A stretch of DNA of 64,000 bases from a virus. Both the position numbers and the translations under genes were made by a program. The notes below the pieces were generated by a model. It saw nothing but the letters and a program-made list of their open reading frames with translations. It did no database searches and was not told the origin of the DNA. Below are positions 4,275 to 48,046 of the stretch, piece by piece (the stretch's first letter is position 1; each line of letters begins with the position of its first letter). The stretch is from the IMG/VR virus record IMGVR_UViG_3300032893_000017, positions 33,319 to 97,318 of that record; one strand, 5' to 3'.

Positions 4275-4281
4275 TGCTTTC

Positions 4282-4611
4282 CTAATATTGCATTATTGGT
4301 TGCATTAATCCATGATTTCTCATCCATACTTCCCTGAATTTTTTACTAAACAGTTTTATCCACTTATGATAGATTCCTTCACCTGGATCTGTACCTATTT
4401 TCTTTGCTATAGCTTCCCTGTATTGTTTCATAGCAGTAATTTGGTCTTGCATGAATCGATGGAAGGTTTCCTGATCCATATCTTTTTCTTTATAGATGTA
4501 TCTATTTCCTTCCTTCCTTAGATACTTATGTGATAGTGCTTTTAATAATCCATTATCTTCTAGAGTAAATGACTTAAAGAAATATTCATCGAATAAAAAA
4601 GGTTGATTCAT
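4282..4611 (-). CDS. Small head-region protein with HKY linker motif
   Basis: A 109-residue protein with no recognised family. Residues 28-42 contain SHKYLRKEG followed by YIYKE, the same linker found three times in the gene upstream and once in the MuF gene downstream. The remainder is a helical, basic segment. It is separated from its neighbours by only a few bases. It may be a stand-alone module of the same polyvalent set, perhaps once part of a larger fusion. Confidence 0.65.
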   Translation of the reverse strand: MNQPFLFDEYFFKSFTLEDNGLLKALSHKYLRKEGNRYIYKEKDMDQETFHRFMQDQITAMKQYREAIAKKIGTDPGEGIYHKWIKLFSKKFREVWMRNHGLMQPIMQY

Positions 4612-4612
4612 T

Positions 4613-7246
4613 CTATTCTCCTTTTTCTATACACTGTAATAATTTATCATAATATTGCTGATCTTTAATTATCCCTTTCTTTACTTTATCTTCTGTGTCC
4701 CATCTTTTTTTTGTTATTTGTTTTCCCAAAACAAGTTCTTTATCTGAAGTAGACTTAAAAACTAAAGACTTTTGCATCTCCTGCTTAAATGCTCTCATAA
4801 ATATATCTTTTAATTTTTCTAAATCACTTTTTGTAAAGTCTGAAAGGCTACCTGTAGGAGCATCTGTTACTCTTACTTCTGTTTTTTTGTTTTTTAGCAA
4901 TACATCATGCAATAGCTGATTCCCAAATCTTGCTACCATTTCAGAATCATCCGCGTAATATTTACTATTACTGCTGCTTAAAAACTTTTGATAAGACTTT
5001 GTTTTCTTAACTTCTTTTACAAAAAGAACACGATCTTGATTCCAGATAGGGTTGCCGTCTTTATATCCTAATACTCTTTCTGTGTAGAACAAATGATGAA
5101 AGTATTCGTGAACAAAAGAATTCTTGAATTTAGATCCTATTGTTATACTTTTATTTGAGGGACTGTAAAAAGCTCGTGCTACCTTATTATAAGAAATCTG
5201 TGCATAATCTTTTTGAAAAGATATTGATAAATTAGTGTGATTTGCAAAACCTAAATCTTTTAAAAGTTCTAATTGATACATAATATTACACCATGCTTTT
5301 TTATTTTCAGGTGTAATATTATTTTGGATGCTTACTTTGAAGTTCTTATTAGCATAATCATACATTTCCTCTATTTTCATTTTCTCAAATTTTTTTATAG
5401 AAATCATTTTTTCAATATTCTCTAGAGTTTCATTTTCTTTCTTATCTGTCTCTTCATAAATATATTTTGCATTCTTGCCTTCACCTATCTTTTTAATATA
5501 CTTATGATTTATCTTTGATTTAAAGAATACTATTTGAGTTCCAATTGACTTAATTAGTATATCTATCTTTTCCATAATTGCATTTATTGGTTGATCACTC
5601 TTAATCATTTCTGAATACTTGCTTCCTATTTCTTTTATCTTTTTGAGTATTTTATGCACCATTACTGGAGATATTTTTATTGCTGTTGCTATTTCTTTTC
5701 CTGTTTGCTTCTTTGTTAAAAGATCTACTACTTTCTTTTCATTCTTTGTTTTTAATTCTGATTTTATTTTACTTAAAAAGTCTTTTACGTTTTTAGTTCT
5801 TTCCTTCTGTTCTTGTTCATACTGTTCATTTGTTTTGTATTCCTTTGATATTAAATCTATTTTATCAATATCACTTTCTACATTCTCGTCTAATGCAGGT
5901 GTATTAAGAATCTTTTCAAAACGTTTGTCTAGAATGTTGTCTCTGTCCACTCCCTGTATACCTACATACTCTCCAGTTTTAGGGTCTTTTATTTCTCCAT
6001 GCTTCATATATCCTTTTATGTAAGTGTATAAGTAAGTAGAAAAAGTATTTGGAGGATATTTTTTAAGATTGAAATTTCTTATTGCATGTATCATTCCCAA
6101 ATTGCCATTTTGATATGCATCCTCTACATCTATCTTTCCCGTTTCATAATCCATAAGAAGATTTTTATTACGCTGAATTACTGCTGTGATATATTTTTGA
6201 TTCTCTACAATAAAATTAGCTCTTGTTGCCCTATCTTCTTTTAACGTATTTATTTGTTCTGCTGATATATTGCCTATATTTATTCCTGTTCTAAGTGTAT
6301 ATGATTTTCCTTCCTTTGTTATTCCTTCTACTATCTTTCCACTTTCATCTCTATACCAATATCTGTAATTTCCTTTACCTCCCTGTCTACGAATGTATTT
6401 ATGTCCAGATTTCATTATTCCAGTAATATTTTTGATAAGATTGAAAAATCCTAGTTTAATTGACTTTGCCATCTCCAAAGCATGTTGTTTTACTACAAAC
6501 TCTTTTCCTGCTTCGTCTACTAATTTTACTATCCCGTCTTTTATTTCTTTTATTGTAGCAACTAATCCTCTTCCTTGGTGTTGATGAATACCTTCTTTTG
6601 ATTTTGCATCTGGTTTGATTCTAACTTTTGCTCCTATTTTAATTTCTGGTTTTTGTTCCCCGTCTTTCTTTTGTGTTGTTTTCTTTTCTGCATACTGTTT
6701 TGCTTTTTCATAGTCATTTGTGATTTTTGTTTTGCCATCCCAATAGAAACCATCTTTGAATTCCAATCCTTCTATTCGTTTGGGTTCTTGTTTAGCCTTA
6801 GGCTGGTCACCTTTAGCTTCTTCATAAATATATTTATCACCTTCCTTACGAAGATATTTATGAGACATTATATTTTTAAAAAAGACTAAATTAACTTTTT
6901 TTTTTAAGTCTGTTAAAGATTTTAAGAAGCCTATTATTACATTTGGTTTAGATTTTTTTGTTAGTCCTGCTTCTGAAAGTGCAATCGCAATAGCCTGCTT
7001 TCTATTCGTAACTTTATCACCACTTCCAGACCTTAGTTTCTTTCTTTTAAATTCCCCCATGACAACATGCACCTTGTCTTGTTTGTTTTTTAGCTTTTTT
7101 CTTTTCTTAGCTCCAGCACCTAATTTATCTGGGTGCTTGTATGCTTCTTCTACTGTCATTTTTTCTGCAGCATCTACAATATACTTTGGAAGTGCTTCCT
7201 GTTCGTTTCCTATTTTGGATTTAATTAAAAAAACTAATTTCGTCAT
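4613..7246 (-). CDS. 877-residue polyvalent head-region protein: DUF6496-like, sigma-70-like and HExxH domains
   Basis: A multi-module protein. Residues about 60-96 (VMGEFKRKKLRSGSG, then RKQAIAIALSEAG) match the short DUF6496-type motif. HKY linkers occur at 129, 282 and 581, each preceded by an aromatic FFK- or FFN-type patch and followed by a YIYEE- or YRYWYRD-type stretch. About 205-262 looks like a small beta-barrel. Residues about 337-415 resemble sigma-70 region 2 (NFIVENQKYI, DVEDAYQNGNLGMIHAIRNF, TFSTYLYTYIKGYM) and about 503-545 resemble region 4 (helix-turn-helix GKEIATAIKISPVMVHKILK). Residues 713-717 are HEYFH, with E769 as possible third zinc ligand: a metallopeptidase-like domain. 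It sits between portal-adjacent genes and the MuF gene, so I infer a virion component carrying host-directed cargo. Sigma activity is unproven. Confidence 0.75.
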   Translation of the reverse strand: MTKLVFLIKSKIGNEQEALPKYIVDAAEKMTVEEAYKHPDKLGAGAKKRKKLKNKQDKVHVVMGEFKRKKLRSGSGDKVTNRKQAIAIALSEAGLTKKSKPNVIIGFLKSLTDLKKKVNLVFFKNIMSHKYLRKEGDKYIYEEAKGDQPKAKQEPKRIEGLEFKDGFYWDGKTKITNDYEKAKQYAEKKTTQKKDGEQKPEIKIGAKVRIKPDAKSKEGIHQHQGRGLVATIKEIKDGIVKLVDEAGKEFVVKQHALEMAKSIKLGFFNLIKNITGIMKSGHKYIRRQGGKGNYRYWYRDESGKIVEGITKEGKSYTLRTGINIGNISAEQINTLKEDRATRANFIVENQKYITAVIQRNKNLLMDYETGKIDVEDAYQNGNLGMIHAIRNFNLKKYPPNTFSTYLYTYIKGYMKHGEIKDPKTGEYVGIQGVDRDNILDKRFEKILNTPALDENVESDIDKIDLISKEYKTNEQYEQEQKERTKNVKDFLSKIKSELKTKNEKKVVDLLTKKQTGKEIATAIKISPVMVHKILKKIKEIGSKYSEMIKSDQPINAIMEKIDILIKSIGTQIVFFKSKINHKYIKKIGEGKNAKYIYEETDKKENETLENIEKMISIKKFEKMKIEEMYDYANKNFKVSIQNNITPENKKAWCNIMYQLELLKDLGFANHTNLSISFQKDYAQISYNKVARAFYSPSNKSITIGSKFKNSFVHEYFHHLFYTERVLGYKDGNPIWNQDRVLFVKEVKKTKSYQKFLSSSNSKYYADDSEMVARFGNQLLHDVLLKNKKTEVRVTDAPTGSLSDFTKSDLEKLKDIFMRAFKQEMQKSLVFKSTSDKELVLGKQITKKRWDTEDKVKKGIIKDQQYYDKLLQCIEKGE

Positions 7247-7258
7247 ATTGTTTTATCC

Positions 7259-7459
7259 TTAATTTATTTTTTCTGGTTCTTCTACTATCTCTTTAATTAG
7301 CACTTGGTTACGAATTAAATTATCTTCTATAATTGTTACTACACTAAATCTACAATTATATTTTTTCATCAATTCGTTTACCTTTTCGCAGCATTCCTTT
7401 GCATTAGGTTCTGCTGCTTCTTTGTTTTCTTTTGGATCTATGACCTGCATTTCATCCAT
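7259..7459 (-). CDS. Hypothetical protein, 66 aa
   Basis: Short acidic protein in the head operon, overlapping the upstream zinc protein by eight bases. It carries a CC pair and a beta-strand-like RFSVVTIIED segment. No family recognised. Confidence 0.55.
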   Translation of the reverse strand: MDEMQVIDPKENKEAAEPNAKECCEKVNELMKKYNCRFSVVTIIEDNLIRNQVLIKEIVEEPEKIN

Positions 7460-7664
7460 GGTTTATCTCCTTGTCTTTCATATTTGAACTACAAGAAGGA
7501 CAATAGTTGTGCCATAAGTTATTTATCTTTTTGGCTGTCCATCCCTGCTTTTTTAGTTCCCTCATTAAAAAATTCCAATTGTTATCTGCCCAAATTTCTT
7601 TCCTGCATCCACAGTTATTGTCACAGATTATTTCATAATCGCCATCTCCAATATTTGTTATCAT
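7452..7664 (-). CDS. Small zinc-ribbon-like protein, 70 aa
   Basis: Cysteines in CDNNCGC near residue 14 and CPSC near residue 55 could bind one zinc ion. The middle resembles a WxxAKKINNLWH helix. No precise family. It sits between the portal gene and the polyvalent head genes. Confidence 0.6.
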   Translation of the reverse strand: MITNIGDGDYEIICDNNCGCRKEIWADNNWNFLMRELKKQGWTAKKINNLWHNYCPSCSSNMKDKEINHG

Positions 7665-7673
7665 TTAACACTC

Positions 7674-7949
7674 CTATATTAAATGTTTAGTTACTTCTAG
7701 AAGTAAAGTTTCTATTTCTTCTGTTGTCTTTAATGAAAATACTTCTCTATACCAATACTTGCTCTCTACTGGAATATATGTCAATGTCAACAGATATCCA
7801 TTGCTTATCATTTCTAAGGTAAAACTGAACCAGTTTATTTTGATACTATCGTCTTTAAATACTTTTATTCCCATCTCCTCTATCATTTTTCTGTGCTTAG
7901 CTGGTATTTGTATTGGTTCTGGTTTTACTTCTATTTTCTTCTTTTCCAT
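7674..7949 (-). CDS. Hypothetical protein, 91 aa
   Basis: Alternating charged and hydrophobic residues suggest a small alpha/beta fold (IKINWFSFTLEMI, YLLTLTYIPVESKYWY). No motif recognised. It lies 9 bases from its upstream neighbour in the head operon. Confidence 0.55.
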   Translation of the reverse strand: MEKKKIEVKPEPIQIPAKHRKMIEEMGIKVFKDDSIKINWFSFTLEMISNGYLLTLTYIPVESKYWYREVFSLKTTEEIETLLLEVTKHLI

Positions 7950-7958
7950 TGTAGTTCC

Positions 7959-8378
7959 TTAAAGCTTTAAAATGTTTTTTGTCTTTAGTATGATATATAT
8001 TTTCTCTTTTGCATTTGATTTGTCATGTGCTGGTTCATACTGTAATCCTTTTTCCATCATCTCATCTACTGCTTCAGTTGTCTCATGCAATAGAACATGA
8101 TAGTAAGTAACTGTTTGTAAGTTGTTGTCTATCCATACTTCATATTCTGGGATATATTTCTTTGCCATCCAGTTTCCAGCTTCATCAAAGTCCATATCAT
8201 GGTTTCTTTTTACATAAGTTCCATTTACTGTAAAGACTTTTATCTTTACTTTTTTGTAGACAAGTGTTCCTATAAAGAGTTTTTGTAAACTCCCATCCAT
8301 TTTTTCTTCATTGAATTTTTCTATGATATCTACTAGAGTTTTGAAGTCTTGCGCATCTTGTTTTAAATTATCTTCCAT
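7959..8378 (-). CDS. HExxE peptidase-like phage protein
   Basis: 139 residues. The C-terminal half contains YEVWIDNNL, then LLHETTEAVDEMMEKGLQYEPAHDKSN, which resembles small bacterial and phage proteins with a metal-binding HE helix and a downstream AH motif (minigluzincin-like). The second zinc histidine of a classical HExxH is replaced by Glu (HETTE), so catalysis is uncertain. It lies directly behind the portal gene and the small zinc peptide. Confidence 0.6.
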   Translation of the reverse strand: MEDNLKQDAQDFKTLVDIIEKFNEEKMDGSLQKLFIGTLVYKKVKIKVFTVNGTYVKRNHDMDFDEAGNWMAKKYIPEYEVWIDNNLQTVTYYHVLLHETTEAVDEMMEKGLQYEPAHDKSNAKEKIYIILKTKNILKL

Positions 8379-8482
8379 TATTTTATCCTACTAGTAAAGA
8401 TCTGTTTTTGAATTCTTCTATTATGGCCTTGCAGAAAAGTATTTTTACATTCTTGACCACAATTACAGGCGCATAAGTTCAT
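8378..8482 (-). CDS. 34-aa zinc-knuckle peptide
   Basis: Begins at ATG 8482 after an AGGAAAT-type ribosome site and ends in a TAATG overlap with the next gene. It carries CACNCGQEC and then FLQGHNRR, the same C-x-C-x-C-G-x2-C plus GHNRR pattern found at the C-terminus of the GIY-YIG endonuclease at 54.5-55.3 kb. It may be a free-standing DNA- or RNA-binding knuckle or a remnant of a homing endonuclease. Confidence 0.55.
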   Translation of the reverse strand: MNLCACNCGQECKNTFLQGHNRRIQKQIFTSRIK

Positions 8483-8494
8483 ATAATTTCCTTC

Positions 8495-10072
8495 TTATAT
8501 TATAATAGTAATATATTCCTTTTTACTTTTTTCTAATTCTTCCTCATTTATTTCAAATTGAGGTTCTTCATTTTCTTCTTTTTTATCATTTCCAAATTGC
8601 TCTTGCTGGCTTTGTTGTTGGGACATTTGATCTTGTTGTATCTTCATCTGGCGTGCTTGTAGAAAAGTAGGGTCTAATATTATCTTTCCTTCTCCATCTG
8701 GAAGAGGAGGAAGATCTTTTTCTGCCCGTAATTCATCAATAAGTAAATAACTTTTTACTCGTTTATCGTCGATTGCAACTTCCTCAGTCTGATTCCTTGC
8801 TTCTAGTCCAGCAGGTTCTATAATGAATTTGTCCCATTCTTTATCTTTGTTTTGCTTTGCTAATACTTTATTATATACTTCACATAGATTTGACATTATA
8901 TATTTCAATCCACGATCATGACTAAATGCTATCTTCTTGTCTGCATTTTCATTCATAACATTTTGTGACTGTACTAGCCTTATTCCTAATTCTTGACTGT
9001 CTGTTCCATGTATTGCAAATATCCAACTTGCTAGCATCTGTATATATTGATTGAATTCCATGTCCCTGTTTGATGGAGCTATGCTTTGCCACTTTGCATT
9101 GTACTGCAAGAATGGAGTCTTCCACATTCCTTTTATCCCTCTAAACATGGATATCCATTCTCTTTGCAGTTCTTCTAAATCTTTTCTATCTAAATTCTGT
9201 CCATCAAATGTTAATATCCCTTTTGGCTGGCTTGAAGTATTAAAGAACTCTTTATTGTATGACATTCCAAATAGCCAGCTTGTTATTATGTCTATACACA
9301 TTTCTATAAAGCTGTATCCGTAATCTCTTTTCCTTATGTCTGCTCTCATATTTGAACAGTAAAATACCATTTCCTCTTCTGTAAATGTTTCTGTTATCTT
9401 ACTGTCTATCTCCTGAACATACTTTATTTCTTTATCACCCAGGTATCCTGTCTTCTTAACTGTCTTCTTTATTGTAGTTCCGTCTAACAGCCAGTAGTCT
9501 ATCATTTCTCCTTTTCTGTTTCTTCTAGGTGTAATTGCTACTTGATCTATTGTAAGTATTTCCCTTACCATCATCTCATTCATTCCAACTAAATGATCTT
9601 TCCTTTCTTCTGCTTCTGGAAAATCTATATAACCACTATATAGGATAAACTGTCCTATCTCTTCTGCTATTTTTTGTTCTTTCTTGTCTGGGGTTCTTTT
9701 TCTGTCTTTTAGTTTTACTACAAATCCTAATTCATCGTCGTTGTATGATATTCTTGCTGCATTTCTTATTTGCATACTTCTCAAGTTGTGAATAGATGCT
9801 ATAGGACCTACTTTCTGTGCTATGTCTCTTAATACTTCAAAACTTAAATTGAAGAATCTTTCTCTTATTCCTCTGGCATTGATGCTCCATCTAAAGAATG
9901 TTGGATCTGGTTCATAAATTCCCTGTGGTGGATTTATACTTCCTCCAGACTTAGACTTTCTTAGTATCTCTGTGTCTATACTTTTTTTGAATTCTTCTAA
10001 ATCCCTGTCTATATCTATTGGAGTTGGTTCTAAATAGTCTTTTAATTTGTTTAATTCGGAAAGGTTAGCCAT
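8495..10072 (-). CDS. Portal protein
   Basis: 525 residues, the usual portal size. The sequence pattern fits phage portals: a tail-proximal beta region, then DYGYSFIEMCIDIITSW, NTSSQPKGILTFDG, an 'LQREWISMFRG' helix, and a Gln/Glu-rich disordered C-terminus (from about residue 475). Portals form the dodecameric DNA channel at one head vertex. It is the first gene after a promoter at 10109-10137 and is followed downstream by MuF-type and other head-region genes, as expected. Confidence 0.85.
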   Translation of the reverse strand: MANLSELNKLKDYLEPTPIDIDRDLEEFKKSIDTEILRKSKSGGSINPPQGIYEPDPTFFRWSINARGIRERFFNLSFEVLRDIAQKVGPIASIHNLRSMQIRNAARISYNDDELGFVVKLKDRKRTPDKKEQKIAEEIGQFILYSGYIDFPEAEERKDHLVGMNEMMVREILTIDQVAITPRRNRKGEMIDYWLLDGTTIKKTVKKTGYLGDKEIKYVQEIDSKITETFTEEEMVFYCSNMRADIRKRDYGYSFIEMCIDIITSWLFGMSYNKEFFNTSSQPKGILTFDGQNLDRKDLEELQREWISMFRGIKGMWKTPFLQYNAKWQSIAPSNRDMEFNQYIQMLASWIFAIHGTDSQELGIRLVQSQNVMNENADKKIAFSHDRGLKYIMSNLCEVYNKVLAKQNKDKEWDKFIIEPAGLEARNQTEEVAIDDKRVKSYLLIDELRAEKDLPPLPDGEGKIILDPTFLQARQMKIQQDQMSQQQSQQEQFGNDKKEENEEPQFEINEEELEKSKKEYITIII

Positions 10073-37900: not shown

Positions 37901-38832
37901 TTTCTATACCTCTCATAGCAATTAGAAATCAATCCTGCTTTTCCTGTATCTATATAATTATTTTTAAATATTTTTATTATCATTAAAGCAATATCACTAT
38001 TATCTGTATATTCTGCATTTAGAATAACTGCACTCATATATCCTAATACTGCCCTTCTAATTCCTTCTGGTTCTTCTTCTATCTTTTTAATAATCTTTCT
38101 TACTTCTTCCCAATTATTATTCTTTAAAAGAGCTCTGCATAAGTTAATTACTAACTCACTATCATCAGAAATTATTGTTTTGTTGACTATCTGTATCTGT
38201 TTTTCTTCATTCTTTATATCTAATATCTTTTCTAGGAGTTTAAGTGCATCCCTCATATGTCCTTCACTTTTCTTAGTTATCTTCTTTAGAACTGTCTCTG
38301 ATACTTTCTTCTTTTCTATAATACATATTTTCTTTAGATATTCAAAAACAGTAACATTCTCCACTTTATCTAATTTTATAATAGTACATCTACTTCTTAT
38401 AGTGCTGATTATCTTTTCTGGATTAGTAGTACATAACATAAAATAAGAAAATGAAGGAGGATTCTCCAAAGTCTTTAGCATAGCATTTTGAAAGTCTCCT
38501 GTACTTTTATGCACCTCATCTAAGATAAATATTCTTACTTTCCTATGAAGGAATTGAGGATCACAATTACTTACTTCGATCAATTCTCTTGCAGTATCTA
38601 TTCCTCTGTTGTTACTACTATTGATTTCCAGTATATCTGTTTCTATTGCTCCTAATTCATAGGATAGTATTTTTGCTAAGCTTGTCTTTCCTACTCCATG
38701 ATCTCCTATAAATAAAAATGTATGAGGACAAGATTCTTTTTTCTTTAATAAATTCTTCAAAGTTAAAATAGAATCTTCATTACCTATAAAATCCTCAAAT
38801 GTCTTTGGACGGTATCTTTCTGTAAAAATCAT
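37897..38832 (-). CDS. Clamp loader ATPase (RFC small subunit / DnaX-like)
   Basis: 311 residues. FTERYRPKTFEDFIGNE is the typical RFC N-terminus; Walker A is GDHGVGKTSLAK, Walker B is FILDEVHKS, sensor 1 is CTTNPEKII, and the SRC motif is TIRSRC. It opens the sliding clamp encoded upstream at 41.4-42.4 kb and loads it for the PolA-type polymerase between them. Start overlaps the polymerase stop. Confidence 0.9.
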   Translation of the reverse strand: MIFTERYRPKTFEDFIGNEDSILTLKNLLKKKESCPHTFLFIGDHGVGKTSLAKILSYELGAIETDILEINSSNNRGIDTARELIEVSNCDPQFLHRKVRIFILDEVHKSTGDFQNAMLKTLENPPSFSYFMLCTTNPEKIISTIRSRCTIIKLDKVENVTVFEYLKKICIIEKKKVSETVLKKITKKSEGHMRDALKLLEKILDIKNEEKQIQIVNKTIISDDSELVINLCRALLKNNNWEEVRKIIKKIEEEPEGIRRAVLGYMSAVILNAEYTDNSDIALMIIKIFKNNYIDTGKAGLISNCYERYRK

Positions 38833-41396
38833 ATATCTATTCTCCTTTTCTTATTCCAAGATTCATCTATATCTGTTATCTCCGCTTCAAATGAAAGAGG
38901 AACAATAATCCATTTCCAATACTCTCTAATATCTTGTTCTATTATTTGCTTAACTCTTTTTAAAATCATATTCTTTTCTTTTGGATATAAATCAAAAACA
39001 ATACTATCATGAATTTGTCCAATTATCTTTGTCTTAAGATTATTTTGCTTAATATACTTATTTATTTGAATTAAACTCCACAGCAAACAATGAAAAGCTG
39101 CTCCTTGTATAGGATAATTTAGAACATCATTTCTTCCCATTGGAGCATAGCATTTGAAACCTGTTTTTAATTCTACAAATCCATCTTCATTATATTGATT
39201 TAATATTTCGCTTTTCCATTCTGTATATCGAACAAATTTCTTATACCAGAAATTATTTTCTATCTTCTCTATATGTTTTTGAAACCTTTTAATATCTCCT
39301 AATTTCTTCTCCCTCAACATTTCCTTCTGTTCTTTATCTAACATTTCCCATATATTTTGGGTTACATCTCCTGCACCTATTTTCTCATGCTCTTCTTTAA
39401 ATATTCTACAAGTAGATCCATAGAATTCTGGAAACACAAAACCGTTTTTAGCAATATATCTTAATCTTTTTGTTACTTCCTTATCTTTCAATATAAATAT
39501 TTCTTTTGCCATATCCCTGTGCATATCTGTATTCTTATCAGTAACATATTTTATCATTACAGGATCTTTGTGGTAGCAAACAGAAATTGCAACTTCAATA
39601 GCTTTTAGATCAACCTCTAATAATTGATTCCCTCTACTAGGAAACAGAAGACCTCTTATTAGATTGTTTGCATATTCATTTCTTACGGGAATATTTTGAA
39701 AGTTTGGATCTGAAGAAGAACTACGAAAAGTTTTTACTGTATGTAAATTAAAATTTGGATATATATAATAATCTCCATTTTCTTTTCTTATTGCTTCTCT
39801 TTCAAATTGACCTAAAAATGTATCTCTTATCTTCATTAGATTTCTATATTCTAAAATGTTATTTGTTATTATAGAATTTATTTTTGCTAAAGAATGCTTA
39901 TCTGTACTTGCTTCTTTTGCCTTAGCTGTCTTTTTACCTACTTCTACTTTCATACTTTTTAATAATTCTCTCATTTGCTTTGATGAACTACTGTTGAAAT
40001 CCTTTTCTAACTTTAATGATTTTACTTCCTTTGCATTCTGAATCTTTTTATCTATCTCATCTATTTTCTTTGCCAATATTTTATATTGTTCTTCATATCC
40101 TTTATAATTGAATCTTATTCCATTTGTCTGCATCTCTGCAAACGCAATTATCCCATCTCTAAAGAATTTTATAGATTCCTTATCTGAAGATTGTATTTCC
40201 TTTCTTTGCTTTAAATATAATCTAAAAGTTAAATCACTATCCATTCCACAGTAGTAGAATAACTTCTCTTTAGGTGCTTGTTTTATATTATTAAAAGCAT
40301 TCGATGATTTCTCTTTTGATTTTAAATAAAAATTCATTTCTGAATCATATCCACATACACCAAAATAAATGTAACTTAGATATTTTAACCCATTACCTAT
40401 TCTATTATCTAATACATGGTTAGTAACCATTGTATCCCACCACCACCCATTGATATTTACTCCTAATATCTTATTTGACCATTGATGCTCGAATTTTAAA
40501 TTATGAGCTATCTTTTTTATCTCTGGATCTTCTAATATTCTTTTTAATTCTTTTTTAAATAATTTATCTTCAAATATCTCAAATACTTTTACTTCCTTAC
40601 CATTACAAATAGATATACATATAATTTCATGTCCTTCTTTATGGGGTTTAATACCTGTAGTCTCATAATCAAATACTATTGTATCCTTCTTTTTTATAGA
40701 AGAAAGAAATCTCATTGTTTGATTATAATCATTCTTTATATCTATTTCTTTTGGAATAAACATAGAAAATTCTGTTGAATAACTTACTGCTTGATATAAT
40801 GTAGAAGAAAAAAGTTCTTTTAGAATAACATCATTCTCATTTCTTAATATATAAGCTGGATGAAAATCTGGAAATATAAAACATTTAAAATCTTGATCTG
40901 GTATTACTTGCCCAAACCAATTATCAATTGTACCTATTTTTATTTTATTTCCAATTAATCCTTGTAATGCTGTTTTTCCAAGTGTTATTATTTTTTCTGG
41001 TTTTAATTCTTCTACTACTTTCATTAAATTAAATCTACAGTAGTTTATCTGAGCATTGGTTGGAGAAACATTGTTTTTAGGTCTACAAATACAGGTATTA
41101 GTAATCCAACAATCTTTCTCCATATCTATACCATAACTTGAAAGGGTAGTTCTTAATAATTGTCCACTTCTACCTATAAAAGGAATTCCTTGTTCATCTT
41201 CCTCTCTACCTGGTGCTTCTCCCACTATCAAAATCTTTTTCTTACCATAGCCATAAACTTTCATTTTAGGACTTAAACAGTTTTTATATAAACCACATTT
41301 TTCACAATCATCTTTAAGAACTTTTTTCTTTTTCTCTTTATCAGCTATTTTCTTTTTTTTGGGATTTTCTATAACATCAAAAAGAAATCCTTTCAT
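38829..41396 (-). CDS. Family-A DNA polymerase with N-terminal family-4 uracil-DNA glycosylase domain
   Basis: 855 residues. About 1-200: UDG family 4, with GEAPGREEDEQGIPFIGRSG, an Fe-S Cys set (CEKC, TCIC and a later Cys) and FHPAYIL. About 230-420: 3'-5' exonuclease (TIVFDYETTG, HNLKFEHQW, YCGMDSDLTF). About 430-855: PolA palm and fingers, motif A LLEVDLKAIEVAI, motif B KRLRYIAKNGFVFPEFYG, motif C GQIHDSIVFD. Such UDG-Pol fusions are known from SPO1-like phages. It is the replicative enzyme, overlapping the clamp gene by one base. An apparently intact UDG implies that uracil in DNA is removed, not tolerated. Confidence 0.9.
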   Translation of the reverse strand: MKGFLFDVIENPKKKKIADKEKKKKVLKDDCEKCGLYKNCLSPKMKVYGYGKKKILIVGEAPGREEDEQGIPFIGRSGQLLRTTLSSYGIDMEKDCWITNTCICRPKNNVSPTNAQINYCRFNLMKVVEELKPEKIITLGKTALQGLIGNKIKIGTIDNWFGQVIPDQDFKCFIFPDFHPAYILRNENDVILKELFSSTLYQAVSYSTEFSMFIPKEIDIKNDYNQTMRFLSSIKKKDTIVFDYETTGIKPHKEGHEIICISICNGKEVKVFEIFEDKLFKKELKRILEDPEIKKIAHNLKFEHQWSNKILGVNINGWWWDTMVTNHVLDNRIGNGLKYLSYIYFGVCGYDSEMNFYLKSKEKSSNAFNNIKQAPKEKLFYYCGMDSDLTFRLYLKQRKEIQSSDKESIKFFRDGIIAFAEMQTNGIRFNYKGYEEQYKILAKKIDEIDKKIQNAKEVKSLKLEKDFNSSSSKQMRELLKSMKVEVGKKTAKAKEASTDKHSLAKINSIITNNILEYRNLMKIRDTFLGQFEREAIRKENGDYYIYPNFNLHTVKTFRSSSSDPNFQNIPVRNEYANNLIRGLLFPSRGNQLLEVDLKAIEVAISVCYHKDPVMIKYVTDKNTDMHRDMAKEIFILKDKEVTKRLRYIAKNGFVFPEFYGSTCRIFKEEHEKIGAGDVTQNIWEMLDKEQKEMLREKKLGDIKRFQKHIEKIENNFWYKKFVRYTEWKSEILNQYNEDGFVELKTGFKCYAPMGRNDVLNYPIQGAAFHCLLWSLIQINKYIKQNNLKTKIIGQIHDSIVFDLYPKEKNMILKRVKQIIEQDIREYWKWIIVPLSFEAEITDIDESWNKKRRIDI

Positions 41397-42439: not shown

Positions 42440-43639
42440 TTAGAATAAACTTAATTCATGCTTATTATTTGTAATGTTATAACCTAGCAGTGTCCTGTTC
42501 TCTTCTATTATCTCTAAAGGATTGGAACTTTCAAAACACTTATCTATTAACTGAAATATCTTATATTGATTTTCTAAAATCTTTTTATAAAAAGATCCTT
42601 GTCCCATATTTATAAAATTCTCTATCTTTTCTTTGAATTGAATAAAAGTATATAAATTATGCATCCCTAAAAAATAATAAAATTCACTTTTATTTCCTTC
42701 ATGAAATATCTTGTATAAATCTTTTATTGTTAATAAACTACATACAGGGCATTTACAGGGCATTTCTGTATGATTCAAATCTGTTACTTTTATATCTCGA
42801 GTAAAACATATCCCTGACATTCCATTTAAACTCTGAAATAAATTATAATTTCCCATAGAAGCAGATAATGAATAACTACTGGAATCAAAAGAAATAGTCA
42901 AGTTAATATTATTCTCATTTAATTTCTTTTGAAGATAATAAATATACATTAAGGTATCTATAGTAGTAAGACCTAAGAAATGTAGTAACTTTACTTCTTT
43001 ATCTTTTCTGTTCGCATATTTCTTGAAAAGTCCTCTTTCTTTTAAAAAAAAGAAACTTAACAAACTGTTATAAACAGGCTGTCTTCCTACACTTCCTATT
43101 GCCAATCCACCCTCAAAATCAAAATCTTTTATTCCTTGCCACCATAATTTCAAATGCTTAATACTTCGACCTTGAAGAACATTCAGAAACTTTGTTTTTC
43201 CCATTTTATTTTTATAGAAGAATTCAAAATTCTTAAGACTAATCTCCAATTTTTTCTTAAAGTTATCATCACAGTGATTTCCTTCTTTTCCATAAGGAGG
43301 GAAATCTATATTAAGAGCATAGTTTGTATTATTTTCTAACCATTCAAATATTTCACTTACAATCTTATCTGAATATTTTAAAACATTAGTTGCTAACTGA
43401 TATCCTCCACTGTCTCCTAGCACTATGCTGGTCTTATAATTTATATCAAATCTTTTTCTTATATTCTTTTTATAAAAATGTCCAGCTGTAATTAAAAAAT
43501 AAGGATAATTAAAAATCTTTTCTCTTTTATCACTTGTACCATAAAACTTAAAAGATTTATCTTTATAACAAAAGTCATTCTCAAAAATTGCACAAACAAA
43601 TCCACTTATCGCAGGAAAAAAGATTGTCTTATTATTCAT
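42440..43639 (-). CDS. dpdA: DpdA-like 7-deazaguanine DNA transglycosylase
   Basis: 399 residues, TGT/Tgt superfamily. GDSGGYQ (Asp76 in the conserved DSGG), FDFEGGLAIGSVG, a FLGLTTIDTLMY match to the TGT 'MGVGtP.dLl' strand, SFDSSSYSLSASMGN with Asp252 as likely nucleophile, and the zinc site Cys295, Cys297, Cys300 and His327. Tgt swaps a guanine in tRNA; phage DpdA swaps guanine in DNA for a 7-deazaguanine made by FolE, QueD and QueE. All three of those are encoded directly upstream, supporting the DNA role. Overlaps the glycosyltransferase gene by eight bases. No QueC or amidotransferase was found in the window. Confidence 0.85.
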   Translation of the reverse strand: MNNKTIFFPAISGFVCAIFENDFCYKDKSFKFYGTSDKREKIFNYPYFLITAGHFYKKNIRKRFDINYKTSIVLGDSGGYQLATNVLKYSDKIVSEIFEWLENNTNYALNIDFPPYGKEGNHCDDNFKKKLEISLKNFEFFYKNKMGKTKFLNVLQGRSIKHLKLWWQGIKDFDFEGGLAIGSVGRQPVYNSLLSFFFLKERGLFKKYANRKDKEVKLLHFLGLTTIDTLMYIYYLQKKLNENNINLTISFDSSSYSLSASMGNYNLFQSLNGMSGICFTRDIKVTDLNHTEMPCKCPVCSLLTIKDLYKIFHEGNKSEFYYFLGMHNLYTFIQFKEKIENFINMGQGSFYKKILENQYKIFQLIDKCFESSNPLEIIEENRTLLGYNITNNKHELSLF

Positions 43640-44648
43640 TATTCACTTCCTTAAAAATATCATCAATTCTGCAATACTTCTCTTCTAAAAATATTTTATT
43701 ATTATTCATTTGAGGAATAAACATATCATAATTATTTAATCTGTATAAAATATATTCTATCAATTGATCTTTATACCTAGAATAATTATTAAAACTTATC
43801 GTCCAATCAGAAGGATATAAAAATGCTTCATTATACATTTCTGGATAGCTTAATCTATTAGGTACACATGGAATAGCATCTAAATATAATCCTTCGAATA
43901 TTCCTATTCCCCATGTTTCTTGAAGAGAAGCAGAAAATACTATTTTACTTCTTGCTAATATTTGATGATACCCTTGCTTTGTAAGTTGAGACTTTTGACA
44001 AAATATTACTTCTACATCTTGTAATCCTTTTGCTAAATCTTCTAATATTTCTGGTTGCTTTTCTTTTGATATCCTATGAGGAAAAACAATTGTATCTGTT
44101 TTTTTAGCATATCTAAATTCATCCAATTCTTTGAAGTAATAAGGTAACCCTGTTACTATTACTTTTTTACTTACTACTGAAGAAAAATATCTTAAAATCA
44201 ATTTCTGATGATAAACAGTTGCAACAAATGATTTATCTAAATTCTGAAGTAAAGCTTCTTCAAAAAAACGAAAATATTTAAAAGAATCTCCTAATAAATC
44301 ATTTACATCATAACTTCCAGCATGCCATATTCCATAGATCTTTATCTTTTTTTGATTTAACCGTGCCATATATCTTAATGCTATTATACCATAGTGCCAT
44401 GCATCTAGAAATAAAAACTTATCTCCATCATTTATCTTTCCCTCTTTAAACAAATTGGAAAGTTGAATTATTTGTTCTGATTTCCAAATATTAGTCTGGG
44501 ATGGATCTAAGAAATTTTTTCCATTTAATTCCTCTGTACTTTTTGTTCCTTCTATTTTTTTAGAATAAGGAAATACATCATAGAACCACCTTCTCCATTG
44601 TGAAGTATATCTAGTTTCTAACTCTTCTAAATAAACAATGTACAGCAT
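43632..44648 (-). CDS. GT-B glycosyltransferase beside DpdA
   Basis: 338 residues with two Rossmann halves. C-terminal half: TIVFPHRISKEKQPEILEDL, VIFCQKSQLTKQGYHQIL, SASLQETWGIGIFEG, and NRLSYPEMY. The last two blocks recall GT4 enzymes and in particular queuosine-tRNA mannosyltransferases of the GTDC1/QTMAN type. N-terminal half has FLFLDAWHYGIIALRYM and IYGIWHAGSYDVNDLLG, a pattern also seen in phage glycosyltransferases. Its place between DpdA and the deazaguanine genes suggests it glycosylates the modified base. The donor sugar is unknown. Confidence 0.75.
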   Translation of the reverse strand: MLYIVYLEELETRYTSQWRRWFYDVFPYSKKIEGTKSTEELNGKNFLDPSQTNIWKSEQIIQLSNLFKEGKINDGDKFLFLDAWHYGIIALRYMARLNQKKIKIYGIWHAGSYDVNDLLGDSFKYFRFFEEALLQNLDKSFVATVYHQKLILRYFSSVVSKKVIVTGLPYYFKELDEFRYAKKTDTIVFPHRISKEKQPEILEDLAKGLQDVEVIFCQKSQLTKQGYHQILARSKIVFSASLQETWGIGIFEGLYLDAIPCVPNRLSYPEMYNEAFLYPSDWTISFNNYSRYKDQLIEYILYRLNNYDMFIPQMNNNKIFLEEKYCRIDDIFKEVNNE

Positions 44649-45560
44649 TTATAATCCCTTCTTAAACTTAACTAAATCTGCTAGGAAGGATTGCAATAAT
44701 AATATAGGACTTCTATAGTAACAACTCTTACACTTCCAAGAAAGCCCTTTTCCTTTCCTGTGTTTCTTTCTTAATTCTTGAATAGTTTTTGATTCCCATA
44801 TTTCCAGCAAATCTTGTTTATATAAATTCCCTAAAGGCAAATGTTTCATAAAATCAAAGCAGCATGGAACTACTGTTCCATCATTTTTTATAGAAACAGA
44901 TAAAAAAGGATTTAAACATATATCCCTTTCTCTTTTAAAATTTGATTTCTCATTCCTATTTTCTATAAAACAATCGTCAACATATCTTATAAAGATATTT
45001 TTTTTATCAAATCTTTTTATAAATAATTCTAATCTCTTTTTACTTGCAAAGAAAGTATTCTTTGTCCACTTTGTTAATAATAATTGAATATATACCATTA
45101 CCTCTTTATTTATATTCTCAAGGAAATAAGTAAGATTTAAAATAAAAGTATTCCATTTTTGAGGATACCTAGATATTTCATATTCTTTTTCATTAAAAGT
45201 ATCAAATGAAATTGTAATTGCATCAAGTATATTAAATACTCTCATATCTACAAGTGATAGATTTGTAGATAATCCTACCATTGTAGAAGTATTTTTTATT
45301 TTCTGTACAATTTTTTCAATATGAGCATCTAACATTGGTTCCCCTGCCATCTGCAACTCCACATAAGGAGTATTTCTTAAATAATTCTTTTCTATAATCA
45401 TATCTAAAAGTTTCATATCAATAAAACCTTTATTTTTTATATCCTTATTTAAACAAGCAGGGCATTTCAAATTACAAACATCTGTAACCTCTATTTGATA
45501 AATATATGGATAAGTAACATTATGCATAAAATTAAGTTTATCTTCAAAATATTTATTCAT
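44649..45560 (-). CDS. Radical-SAM/SPASM protein
   Basis: Start taken at ATG 45560 with AGGAAGG upstream, leaving an eight-base overlap with the previous gene. 303 residues. The 4Fe-4S motif is CNLKCPAC, followed by MAGEPMLD (GGEP-like) and TISFDTFNEKEYE. C-terminal auxiliary-cluster (SPASM-type) Cys: CLNPFLSV, VVPCCFDF and WKCKSCYY. SPASM enzymes modify peptides, proteins or small molecules by radical chemistry. In this operon, next to DpdA and a glycosyltransferase, a role in tailoring the deazaguanine base or its substituent is plausible but unproven. Confidence 0.8.
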   Translation of the reverse strand: MNKYFEDKLNFMHNVTYPYIYQIEVTDVCNLKCPACLNKDIKNKGFIDMKLLDMIIEKNYLRNTPYVELQMAGEPMLDAHIEKIVQKIKNTSTMVGLSTNLSLVDMRVFNILDAITISFDTFNEKEYEISRYPQKWNTFILNLTYFLENINKEVMVYIQLLLTKWTKNTFFASKKRLELFIKRFDKKNIFIRYVDDCFIENRNEKSNFKRERDICLNPFLSVSIKNDGTVVPCCFDFMKHLPLGNLYKQDLLEIWESKTIQELRKKHRKGKGLSWKCKSCYYRSPILLLQSFLADLVKFKKGL

Positions 45561-45882
45561 ATTCCTTCCTACTTCCATTCTCATTATCCTCACTTACCTC
45601 TATTATTATTTTTCTATTTGGATACTGTGTATGAATCTTTAGATGCAAATTATCGCTTATCATTTCACAGGACATATTATTAAAATTAGTTGTCTTAATA
45701 ACTCCTTCACAAAAATGCTTAAACTCAATAAATTCTATATCTCTATCCTCATGAAAGACTTCTAAATATACTTTTGCATGAAAAATATGTCGATGGGTAT
45801 ATCTTAAAAAAGAAACTTCTTCTGGAGCATAGGGATAGCAATGGAATCCTTCAAAGCTAAAAGTAATCCAAACATAATTCAT
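45553..45882 (-). CDS. QueD-like T-fold protein (second copy), 109 aa
   Basis: ITFSFEGFHCYPYAPEEVSF, then YTHRHIFHAKVYLEVFHED and IEFIEFKHFC, follow the strand and His pattern of 6-pyruvoyl-tetrahydropterin synthase/QueD (AH…HGH…V…DF..LK), but the Cys of the active site is displaced. I recall this family from many phages as an unnamed protein. In the modification operon it may be a second T-fold enzyme or a helper. Preceded by AAGGAGATAAA. Confidence 0.55.
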   Translation of the reverse strand: MNYVWITFSFEGFHCYPYAPEEVSFLRYTHRHIFHAKVYLEVFHEDRDIEFIEFKHFCEGVIKTTNFNNMSCEMISDNLHLKIHTQYPNRKIIIEVSEDNENGSRKEYE

Positions 45883-45883
45883 T

Positions 45884-46792
45884 TTATCTCCTTATTAAGT
45901 TTAAAAATTCATTTCTTACTTCTGTTTTTTCAAAAACCCCTCTAATTGCTGAAGTTGTCATTTCTGCATCTTGGGATTTTATTCCTCTTGATATCATGCA
46001 GAGATGCTTTGCTTCTACTAAAACCATTACACCTTTTGGTTGCAAATATTCCATTAAACAGTCAGCTATTTGTGCTGTCATTTTTTCTTGTATCTGTAAC
46101 CTTCTAGCAAATATTTCAACAAGCCTCGCTAACTTACTCAAACCAATAACTCTTTTATCAGGTATATATCCTAAAAAGCATTGACCAAAGAAAGGCTGCA
46201 AGTGATGCTCGCAGTTAGAATAGAAATTTATGCTCTTCAAAACCACCATTTCATTACATGCACCCTCTTCAAAAGTTGTCATTATTTCTTTTGGATCCAT
46301 TTTATATCCTGCATACAATTCATTCCAACTCTTTATTATTCTTCTTGGAGTTTCTTTCAATCCCTCTCTATTTGGATCTTCTCCAATATACTCTAATTGT
46401 CTTATTATATTATCTTCTATATCATTTTCTTTTTCAAATGGAAACTGTATCCATCTATCTATCGTTTCGACATAATAATCAACTTTATCTATATTTTTAT
46501 TTTTTAAAAATAAAACTGCTTTATCGTAATCACGAAACATTCCTAAAGTCTTTCCTGAATCTATCACATCGTCTATTATTAAAACTTCATCTTTCGGAAA
46601 ATCTATAACTTTATTTAAATCATTTTCAATTTCCAATTCCAAATATTTATTCATCTCTTGTGCAACAAATAAACCATTCTTTGGAATTGGATACAAATAC
46701 TTATATTTATCTTTAGATATTTGAAAAGCCAATATCCTACATAATCTTTTAAACTCTGGATAATCTATCTCATATTTATTAACTTGTGACAT
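45884..46792 (-). CDS. folE: Phosphoribosyltransferase-GTP cyclohydrolase I fusion
   Basis: ATG 46792 is preferred over the in-frame TTG at 46810, with GGAGG upstream. 302 residues: about 1-120 is a type-I PRTase-like domain with the PRPP loop VLIIDDVIDSGKT; about 121-302 is FolE, with GEDPNREGLKETPRR, NFYSNCEHHLQPFFG (Cys194, His196, His197), VIGLSKLARLVEIFARRLQ and KHLCMISRGIK (Cys265). FolE opens GTP to dihydroneopterin triphosphate, the first step to 7-deazaguanines. The fused PRTase could salvage a purine to GTP and feed the enzyme. Confidence 0.85.
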   Translation of the reverse strand: MSQVNKYEIDYPEFKRLCRILAFQISKDKYKYLYPIPKNGLFVAQEMNKYLELEIENDLNKVIDFPKDEVLIIDDVIDSGKTLGMFRDYDKAVLFLKNKNIDKVDYYVETIDRWIQFPFEKENDIEDNIIRQLEYIGEDPNREGLKETPRRIIKSWNELYAGYKMDPKEIMTTFEEGACNEMVVLKSINFYSNCEHHLQPFFGQCFLGYIPDKRVIGLSKLARLVEIFARRLQIQEKMTAQIADCLMEYLQPKGVMVLVEAKHLCMISRGIKSQDAEMTTSAIRGVFEKTEVRNEFLNLIRR

Positions 46793-47334
46793 TGTAAACC
46801 TAACCTCCAACCTTTTATATTCATAATCATATCAATAAATTCTTTTTTATTTGATTCTGGCTGTAAATAAAAATATTTTATTTTATAAAATTCTGAAACT
46901 TTATCTCTATAATAATTCAATTCTTTTATTTCTTGCCCATAATAAACCATTTTTAATTCATCACAAAATAACTGTTTGAAATCCCGATTTTTTGGACTTA
47001 ATGTTATCCAATCCAAATACTGCAAAAGATCATCTAACTTTTTATTTCCATTTGTTTCTAGAAATAAGTAATATTTATTTAATTTTAAAAATCTTAATAA
47101 ATCAACATCTATCTGTAATGTTGGTTCTCCTCCCGTTAAAACTATCTTGTCTGTTTCATATTTTTTAATTTCTTCCAAAATCATTTCCTTGGAGAACTGT
47201 GAACCTGCAAAATGGTCCGTATCACAATAACCACATTTCTCATCACATCCGGCAAATCTTAGAAATACACATTTTTCTCCAGTATTGGCACCTTCACCTT
47301 GAGCAGAAAAAAATATTTCATTTATTATATACAT
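46765..47334 (-). CDS. queE: 7-carboxy-7-deazaguanine synthase
   Basis: Start at ATG 47334, after GGAGGG and overlapping the previous stop as TAATG. 189 residues. EIFFSAQGEGANTG and the radical-SAM motif CDEKCGYCD (C-x3-C-x2-C), then IVLTGGEPTLQ, and a short C-terminus with KYFYLQPES are diagnostic for QueE. It converts the QueD product CPH4 to CDG. Encoded with FolE and QueD in the same operon. Confidence 0.9.
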   Translation of the reverse strand: MYIINEIFFSAQGEGANTGEKCVFLRFAGCDEKCGYCDTDHFAGSQFSKEMILEEIKKYETDKIVLTGGEPTLQIDVDLLRFLKLNKYYLFLETNGNKKLDDLLQYLDWITLSPKNRDFKQLFCDELKMVYYGQEIKELNYYRDKVSEFYKIKYFYLQPESNKKEFIDMIMNIKGWRLGLQCHKLINMR

Positions 47335-47666
47335 TAAATTACCCTCCATTCTTCAAGTGATACAAATATTTGCTTTTCATATCCTTGAAACTTCATTACC
47401 ATTCCTTTCTCTATAATCTCTTCTTTTGTTAAAGTATAATTATCAAACATTACTATATCTTTGTCTCTAAGTTTTTCCAGAATTAATTCAGAAACTCCAA
47501 ACATCTCCTCTCCAGTTATTCTATTCGTAAAAGATTGAGGATTGTTTTTAACATAGTATTTTATTCCTTTTCTTTCAAAGAAACTTCCTATCTTTCTTTT
47601 TCTACCATTTTCGTTTTCTAATTCTAAAAAAACATTATTGTCTTTTATTGTTAGTTTATTTGACAT
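47334..47666 (-). CDS. Hypothetical protein between QueE and QueD, 110 aa
   Basis: Beta-rich protein (NNVFLELENENGRKRKIGSF; NNPQSFTNRITGEEMFGVSE). No domain recognised. Its conserved placement between two pathway genes (TAATG overlaps on both sides) suggests a linked role. Confidence 0.6.
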   Translation of the reverse strand: MSNKLTIKDNNVFLELENENGRKRKIGSFFERKGIKYYVKNNPQSFTNRITGEEMFGVSELILEKLRDKDIVMFDNYTLTKEEIIEKGMVMKFQGYEKQIFVSLEEWRVI

Positions 47667-48046
47667 TAAAAATCTCCTACTTCTGCATAGGTCTTTTTTC
47701 CTACTGATGTCTCATAAAATCTAACTTTAAATTGAAGTTCAGAATTTCTATTTTTAAAAAACCTATATATATCCAAACATAAATTCTCTGCGGTTGGATT
47801 AATATTTTTATAATCTATATCCTTATTCGAACACTCATTCAAACATTTATGATCAAACTGTTCTTTTATTGATTTAATATTATTAAAATCAAAAAGCATT
47901 CCTGTTTCATTTAGCTGACTTTCATCTCCTTTAATCCAAAGTCTTATTAACCCTGAATGCCCATGGAGGTTTTTGCAATTCCCTTCATAGCCACGTAAAT
48001 AATGAGCATAGTCAATTACTGTCTCGGTGTAAACTGTTATTAGCAT
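47666..48046 (-). CDS. queD: 6-carboxy-tetrahydropterin synthase
   Basis: 126 residues, normal for QueD. Zinc ligands His15, His28 and His30 (DYAHYLRG; NLHGHSG) and catalytic Cys24 (GNCKNLHGH) are present, with LFDFNNIKSI, DHKCLNE and NPTAENLC. It makes 6-carboxy-tetrahydropterin for QueE. Its start lies inside the end of a 58-aa gene. Confidence 0.9.
   Translation of the reverse strand: MLITVYTETVIDYAHYLRGYEGNCKNLHGHSGLIRLWIKGDESQLNETGMLFDFNNIKSIKEQFDHKCLNECSNKDIDYKNINPTAENLCLDIYRFFKNRNSELQFKVRFYETSVGKKTYAEVGDF

Follow-up and report, generated by a model that had tools for sequence, protein, structure and literature searches.

Glycosyltransferases related to QTMAN (GTDC1), the tRNA-queuosine alpha-mannosyltransferase, appear as partners of one subfamily of DpdA, a guanine transglycosylase, in a range of large phages, and we consider it probable (at roughly 0.68) that these enzymes glycosylate a 7-deazaguanine which DpdA would have inserted into phage DNA. 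The glycosyltransferase considered here (hereafter the GT) is encoded at 43632-44648, next to dpdA at 42440-43639, both on the minus strand of the window, i.e. the whole 64,000-nucleotide stretch that was analysed, corresponding to bases 33319-97318 of the IMG/VR virus record IMGVR_UViG_3300032893_000017 (97,318 bases in total). In the pathway we propose, FolE, QueD and QueE would produce 7-carboxy-7-deazaguanine (CDG), the small protein U109 would process CDG further, DpdA would exchange the processed base for guanine in phage DNA, and the GT, a putative retaining enzyme of GT4 fold, would use a host nucleotide sugar as donor to glycosylate the 7-deazaguanine, the bulky product of which may block restriction and nuclease attack. 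Guanine released by DpdA could be salvaged by a phosphoribosyltransferase (PRTase). A glycosylated 7-deazaguanine in phage DNA had been suggested by the first-pass annotation of the window; conserved gene linkage and kinship with QTMAN speak for that suggestion, whilst we infer the remainder, namely that the deazaguanine is the acceptor, that the GT acts on DNA after insertion of the base, and that the purpose is protective.

Kinship of the glycosyltransferase with QTMAN

The GT gene is an intact open reading frame (ORF) for 338 residues with an ATG start, and its TAA stop and the ATG of dpdA overlap by 8 bp, confirming an overlap noted in the first-pass annotation. Both sequence blocks to which that annotation had drawn attention, ETWGIGIFEG and NRLSYPEMY, are present, the first supplying the EX7E motif of GT4 enzymes (244-ETWGIGIFE-252). 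Whole-protein scans of the GT against Pfam, PHROGs and NCBIfam gave no match above cut-off, and a search of the PDB with the single sequence gave no match; because the Pfam Glycos_transf_1 (PF00534) match, at E 0.14 and 12.2 bits, lies below the curated cut-off of 26.4, kinship had to be sought with profile methods. Across an alignment of 55 GTs (that of the window and 54 viral relatives) R192, K197, E244 and E252 are invariant, and H109 is nearly so.

An AlphaFold2 model of the GT (pLDDT 94.5) has the GT-B fold, with BshA, SenB, MshA and glycogen synthase among the top Foldseek matches in the PDB. Superposition with VIA-align gave Z 25.9 for sucrose-phosphate synthase (root-mean-square deviation, rmsd, 3.1 over 312 aligned residues) and 24.9 for BshA (rmsd 2.7, 295 aligned), the range across BshA, MshA and sucrose-phosphate synthase being 24-26. 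The fold, the EX7E motif, the Arg/Lys phosphate-binding pair and the conserved histidine are together those of a retaining GT4 enzyme. Such structural matches establish the fold rather than the function, and since no QTMAN entry is among the matches listed by Foldseek and VIA-align, the structure search proposed in the first-pass annotation upheld a general GT4 fold and neither supported nor refuted kinship with QTMAN, which it cannot decide.

That kinship is instead apparent from profile comparison, genome search and phylogeny, all of which bear out the likeness first perceived from the two blocks. The reference set consisted of 18 bacterial QTMAN_N proteins: 17 above cut-off came from 200 genomes of one phylum, the other from Marinimicrobia. 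Aligned with hhalign, the phage-GT profile matched this set over 244 columns with a probability of 99.1 (E 1.7e-18). BshA and MshA, which share the GT-B fold (Z 24-25) and with SenB are the best solved structures found by Foldseek, provide the contrast: 20 BshA sequences were matched with a probability of only 21 (E 1e-3, 48 columns). When 26 genomes were searched blind with the profile of the phage GTs, the QTMAN gene was the top bacterial match (E 5e-16 to 3e-9) in each of the 18 genomes encoding one, genomes which together contain 199 Glycos_transf_1 matches; one other GT4 appeared at E 0.012, and the best value in the eight genomes lacking QTMAN was 0.36. The Marinimicrobia genome additionally encodes a GT of the phage type (E 3e-156), which was set aside in this count. 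A tree of 67 proteins, a quick one with long branches and with only BshA and 22 mixed GT4 proteins as outgroups, separated phage GTs together with QTMANs from the rest at a branch supported by SH-aLRT 99.9, and a constrained grouping of phage GTs with BshA was disfavoured (p-AU 0.045).

The two families also share a motif downstream of the EX7E glutamate, P-x(1-3)-R-xx-Y-x-E, which 44/55 phage GTs and 14/18 QTMANs contain and which none of the 20 BshA or 22 other GT4 proteins has; the relevant stretch is EAIYCGAFPLLPNRLSYPE in the Marinimicrobia QTMAN_N protein and EGLYLDAIPCVPNRLSYPE in the window GT. The motif common to the two families is of the type P[DN]R[LQ]xYPE. The QTMAN_N domain itself (PF12038) gave no match to the GT with the E limit set at 1, and none across 11 records when the limit was relaxed to 10, and for this reason we term the GT a sister family and not a member of QTMAN. 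Judged by these comparisons, it shares ancestry with the QTMAN family and is nearer to it than to the other GT4 proteins compared (BshA and the 22 mixed sequences).

Partnership with DpdA and the deazaguanine genes

The product of 42440-43639 is, on the evidence of its sequence, a relative of tRNA-guanine transglycosylase (TGT) and DpdA. Its match to Pfam TGT (E 1.2e-5) falls just short of the cut-off, the profile of its family matches solved tRNA-guanine transglycosylase structures at E 2e-7, and D76, D112 and D252, which we take to be the active-site aspartates of TGT, are invariant in 20 sequences; a CKCPVC motif lies at residue 295.

To describe how far the GT and the deazaguanine genes occur together we used the best 80 loci retrieved with each of three queries, out of 101 relatives in the case of the GT, at least 584 in that of U109 (whose relatives are thus widespread in viral contigs) and at least 534 in that of DpdA. 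With the GT as sole query, and after deduplication at 80% identity (counting from locus L008 and leaving out L087), 57 of 59 viral loci contain at least one of DpdA (39 loci), U109 (49), FolE (44), QueE (48) and QueD (21), and L071, which is among the two exceptions, encodes DpdA in another part of its contig; the proportion among viral loci of at least 15 kb is 41/42. Contigs from bacterial or archaeal genomes behave similarly, a deazaguanine gene accompanying the GT in 23 of 24 (DpdA in 18, U109 in 16). Conversely, the GT is present in 62/80 loci found with U109 (40/43 of those of at least 15 kb) and in 65/80 found with DpdA (30/31), although the three directions are not fully independent because some contigs recur between sets (L009 and L173, for example). 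Gene order varies from locus to locus and the partnership is maintained. Within a phage collection of 50,697 records, FolE occurs in 392 and the GT in 19-20; these are the only background figures, the viral contigs having no independent rate of their own. A second phage GT4 (L215, 16671-18122) was considered as a background control and rejected, since it comes from the same marine phages and so provides no independent background (DpdA in 40 and the GT in 34 of its 80 loci).

Named phages carrying the GT family comprise the PA5oct group, Phosso, ACP17, X1, the PhiXhv-12 group and BUCT-ZZ01, and DpdA of the window type accompanies the GT in all six representatives (PA5oct, ACP17, X1, Phosso, BUCT-ZZ01 and PhiXhv-12, the last with the weakest match, E 5e-21). 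Seven phages with U109 and no GT (phiST, RHph_I1_18, MA9V-3, Roos, Ahp1, Bakedbeans and D479) all lack the window-type DpdA, and in six of them, Roos being excepted, U109 is near FolE, in some cases with QueE and QueD as well. A search of the seven with Pfam TGT gave no match; this profile also misses PA5oct, ACP17 and X1, and is therefore blind for these DpdAs. Several of the seven encode, just downstream of U109, a short protein of 260-300 residues with TGT-like motifs, which hhalign relates to DpdA with a probability of 82.7 (E 9.5e-6); of six such proteins compared with DpdA, that of L431 looks unrelated. Short proteins of this kind, 260-290 residues long, weakly similar to TGT/DpdA and assigned to phrog_20335 or phrog_19058 (function unknown), lie at 9789-10568 in L430, 9794-10588 in L433, 9420-10292 in L435 and 9683-10540 in L437. 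A description of the seven phages as devoid of any DpdA was accordingly withdrawn, and the contrast is one of DpdA subtypes rather than of presence and absence. The pattern in these 13 phages suggests that U109 takes part in making the base, upstream of DpdA of either type, and that the GT is an accessory that goes with only one of the two types.

The stretch 447-9704 of the Xanthomonas phage PhiXhv-12 (L005, PV764601.1) encodes a GT homologue that is only distantly related, together with a Gat-QueC fusion (its annotation reads GFAT), a GFO/IDH/MocA oxidoreductase, a PIG-L deacetylase, a GNAT/FemX-like protein and a Leu/Phe-tRNA-protein transferase; this set may serve sugar-amine-aminoacyl hypermodification of a 7-deazaguanine. 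The GT is also found on long chromosomal contigs of some bacteria (Devosia, Shimia and Magnetospirillum), directly downstream in Devosia and Shimia of a Vut_1-like transporter, putatively for vitamin uptake. Alphaproteobacterial loci with both GT and DpdA (L254, L255, L265, L266 and L268-L273), some of them with U109, some with a Vut_1-like transporter adjacent to GT and DpdA, and some near integrase-like genes, may be bacterial islands or remnants.

The gene run and base synthesis

In the window the GT and dpdA end a compact run of minus-strand genes. QueD (47666-48046), which retains C24, H28, H30 and the D65-H66 pair, is followed by a 110-residue protein of unknown function (47334-47666) that was not found in the other loci, and then by QueE, the 7-carboxy-7-deazaguanine synthase (46765-47349). 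Next comes a PRTase-FolE fusion (45884-46810), in which an N-terminal PRTase with its phosphoribosyl pyrophosphate (PRPP) motif at 76 precedes GTP cyclohydrolase I at 132-307. U109 (45553-45882; phrog_17812, function unknown) and a radical SAM/SPASM protein (44649-45593, CNLKCPAC at 40), the latter present in some GT loci only, complete the run. Beyond dpdA lie two further genes, one for a clamp-like product (Pfam E 0.07) and one whose likeness to DNA polymerase was judged by eye; an 855-residue ORF at 38829-41396 has, again by eye from its translation, an N-terminus of uracil-DNA-glycosylase type and a DNA polymerase I-like C-terminus. The G+C content of the window is approximately 25-34%. 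Far from the run, 1866-4274 encodes a protein of 802 residues in which an inorganic pyrophosphatase-like domain (PF18823) is accompanied by a C-terminus with sub-threshold likeness to ADP-ribosyltransferase exoenzymes.

U109, a protein of 109 residues, is predicted to adopt the T-fold of QueD (pLDDT 95.6), matching QueD structures at E 1.5e-5 with Z of about 12 and rmsd 2.1-2.4. The three zinc-type histidines of QueD are present (H14 and H30/H32), and Cys72 and Glu98 are conserved too. We nonetheless rejected its identification as a canonical QueD: the position of the QueD catalytic cysteine, C24, is occupied by an invariant leucine (Leu26), and the D65-H66 pair has no equivalent. Many phage QueD proteins (L015, L019, L025 and others) show a different change, HGY replacing HGH with loss of the first zinc-type histidine, whilst the catalytic Cys and the Asp-His pair are kept. 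QueC had no match in the whole 97,318-base record, and a full-length copy was present in one (PhiXhv-12) of 45 GT-bearing whole records, picked mainly for length, with two further above-cut-off matches that were partial. Most GT-bearing phages thus appear to stop at CDG unless the host contributes, and U109 is the obvious candidate for the step beyond; it is probably an enzyme that processes CDG. Work by Cui in 2023 reportedly predicted a CDG decarboxylase, DpdL, in phages, a possible identity for U109.

Competing readings and significance

Several observations weigh against glycosylation of a DpdA-inserted base in DNA. The placement of the sugar on a DNA base is deduced from the genes, of which GT and DpdA lie within 60 bp of one another in only 7 of the 39 viral loci having both; DpdA was not found in four long GT-bearing fragments of 48-98 kb. 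Some QTMANs (4/18) and phage GTs (11/55) depart from the exact PxRxxYxE motif, and the best Foldseek matches of the GT are small-molecule glycosyltransferases, not QTMAN. Binding of nucleic acid by the GT is not evident, since the families are all mildly acidic (median pI 5.6 for the GT, 6.1 for QTMAN, 5.4 for U109 and 6.0 for DpdA). Finally, a plain 7-deazaguanine, as might remain after the action of U109, would have no ordinary hydroxyl to which an O-linked sugar could be attached.

The acidity of the GT, and the fact that BshA, SenB and MshA, its best fold matches, act on small molecules, are also what would be expected were the GT to act before insertion, on the free base or nucleotide, with the decorated base then introduced by DpdA or by a route through PRTase and polymerase. 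We regard this as unlikely, though it is the alternative that survives best. PRTase is fused to FolE in the window, and a pooled survey of 156 deduplicated loci (one scanned representative per cluster, loci fetched with U109 and DpdA included, copies L006, L007 and L087 and GT fragments below 250 residues omitted) places a PRTase family close to the GT in 65; salvage of guanine set free by DpdA would account for its presence just as well. A TGT-type pocket would moreover need to take a bulky glycosylated base, and QTMAN, the nearest sequence kin, whose acceptor is itself a 7-deazaguanine, works, as far as the family is known, on queuosine already in tRNA.

Distinctly less likely is a form of glycosylation after insertion in which U109 decarboxylates CDG, DpdA inserts 7-deazaguanine and the GT, a relative of an enzyme that mannosylates queuosine through oxygen, joins the sugar to the C7 carbon, giving a C-glycosylated DNA base; in some phages, e.g. 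PhiXhv-12 with its PIG-L deacetylase, Leu/Phe transferase and GNAT protein, the sugar would then be a handle for further decoration. More generally, the neighbours of the GT in the 156 loci, including alcohol dehydrogenases in 25 and GFO/IDH/MocA proteins in 23, hint that sugar or base is tailored differently between phages, as the radical SAM/SPASM protein may do in the window.

Since tRNA is the substrate of both TGT and QTMAN, the closest cellular families, the gene set might modify host or phage tRNA rather than DNA through a TGT-like enzyme and a QTMAN-like GT. We hold this to be improbable: PMC6884629, in which DpdA, DpdA2 and several deazaguanines are described, has phage DpdA enzymes acting on DNA, the operon adjoins clamp-like and/or DNA polymerase genes in the window, PA5oct, Phosso, ACP17 and X1, and no tRNA gene was found within the window. 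Least probable of all is that the GT is a commonplace phage enzyme devoted to sugars of the host envelope or to proteins of the virion, incidentally close to dpdA, since, although several GT families occur in surface-polysaccharide clusters of jumbo phages (PMC7824862) and sugar-type genes are found near the GT in the 156 loci (epimerase family in 28, DegT in 15, CTP-transferase-like in 15), the deazaguanine genes accompany it almost throughout the viral and genome-contig loci and in varied gene order, and its kin is QTMAN, not BshA or the 22 other GT4 proteins compared.

Glycosylation of a DpdA-inserted base, the reading we prefer, has a precedent in the DNA of T-even phages, where alpha- and beta-glucosyltransferases act on 5-hydroxymethylcytosine and where, as expected here, a phage GT adds sugar to a DNA base for protection. 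The base is a different one, and the window acceptor would arise by base exchange, whereas that of T-even phages enters as a deoxynucleoside triphosphate. To our knowledge, the 7-deazaguanines reported in phage DNA so far bear small groups (nitrile, amide, aminomethyl or amidine). Like the phage DpdA systems of PMC6884629, the window groups FolE, QueD and QueE with a DpdA of the TGT family in a single operon; it differs from them in the lack of a full-length QueC in its record and the addition of the GT and U109. From QTMAN, the nearest GT4 kin tested, the GT differs in having no PF12038 match, in sitting with DpdA in phages and in its acceptor, presumed to be in DNA; PMC12518689 locates queuosine mannose on tRNA-Asp.

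As to earlier accounts, no word in PMC6884629 begins with 'glycos', PMC7824862 mentions that PA5oct has a system for making and incorporating deazaguanine, with no GT in the passages concerned, PMC12783734 gives 5-hydroxymethyl pyrimidines as the glycosylation handles known to date, and PMC12028318 reports dPreQ1 in a vibrio phage. A glycosylated or GT-linked 7-deazaguanine in DNA is not described in the literature searched, from which subscription papers and preprints were mostly outside scope, and the remark of the first-pass annotation that it knew of no description of this modification type is in keeping with that result.

If our reading is correct, base exchange by DpdA and glycosylation, the two great ways in which phages disguise their DNA, would be combined in one base, and could confer resistance to many restriction enzymes, and perhaps to CRISPR nucleases, across widespread large phages that include the therapy-relevant PA5oct group. 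It would also name a gene and a mass that can be tested, indicate a function for phrog_17812, and give the QTMAN family a branch that acts on DNA.

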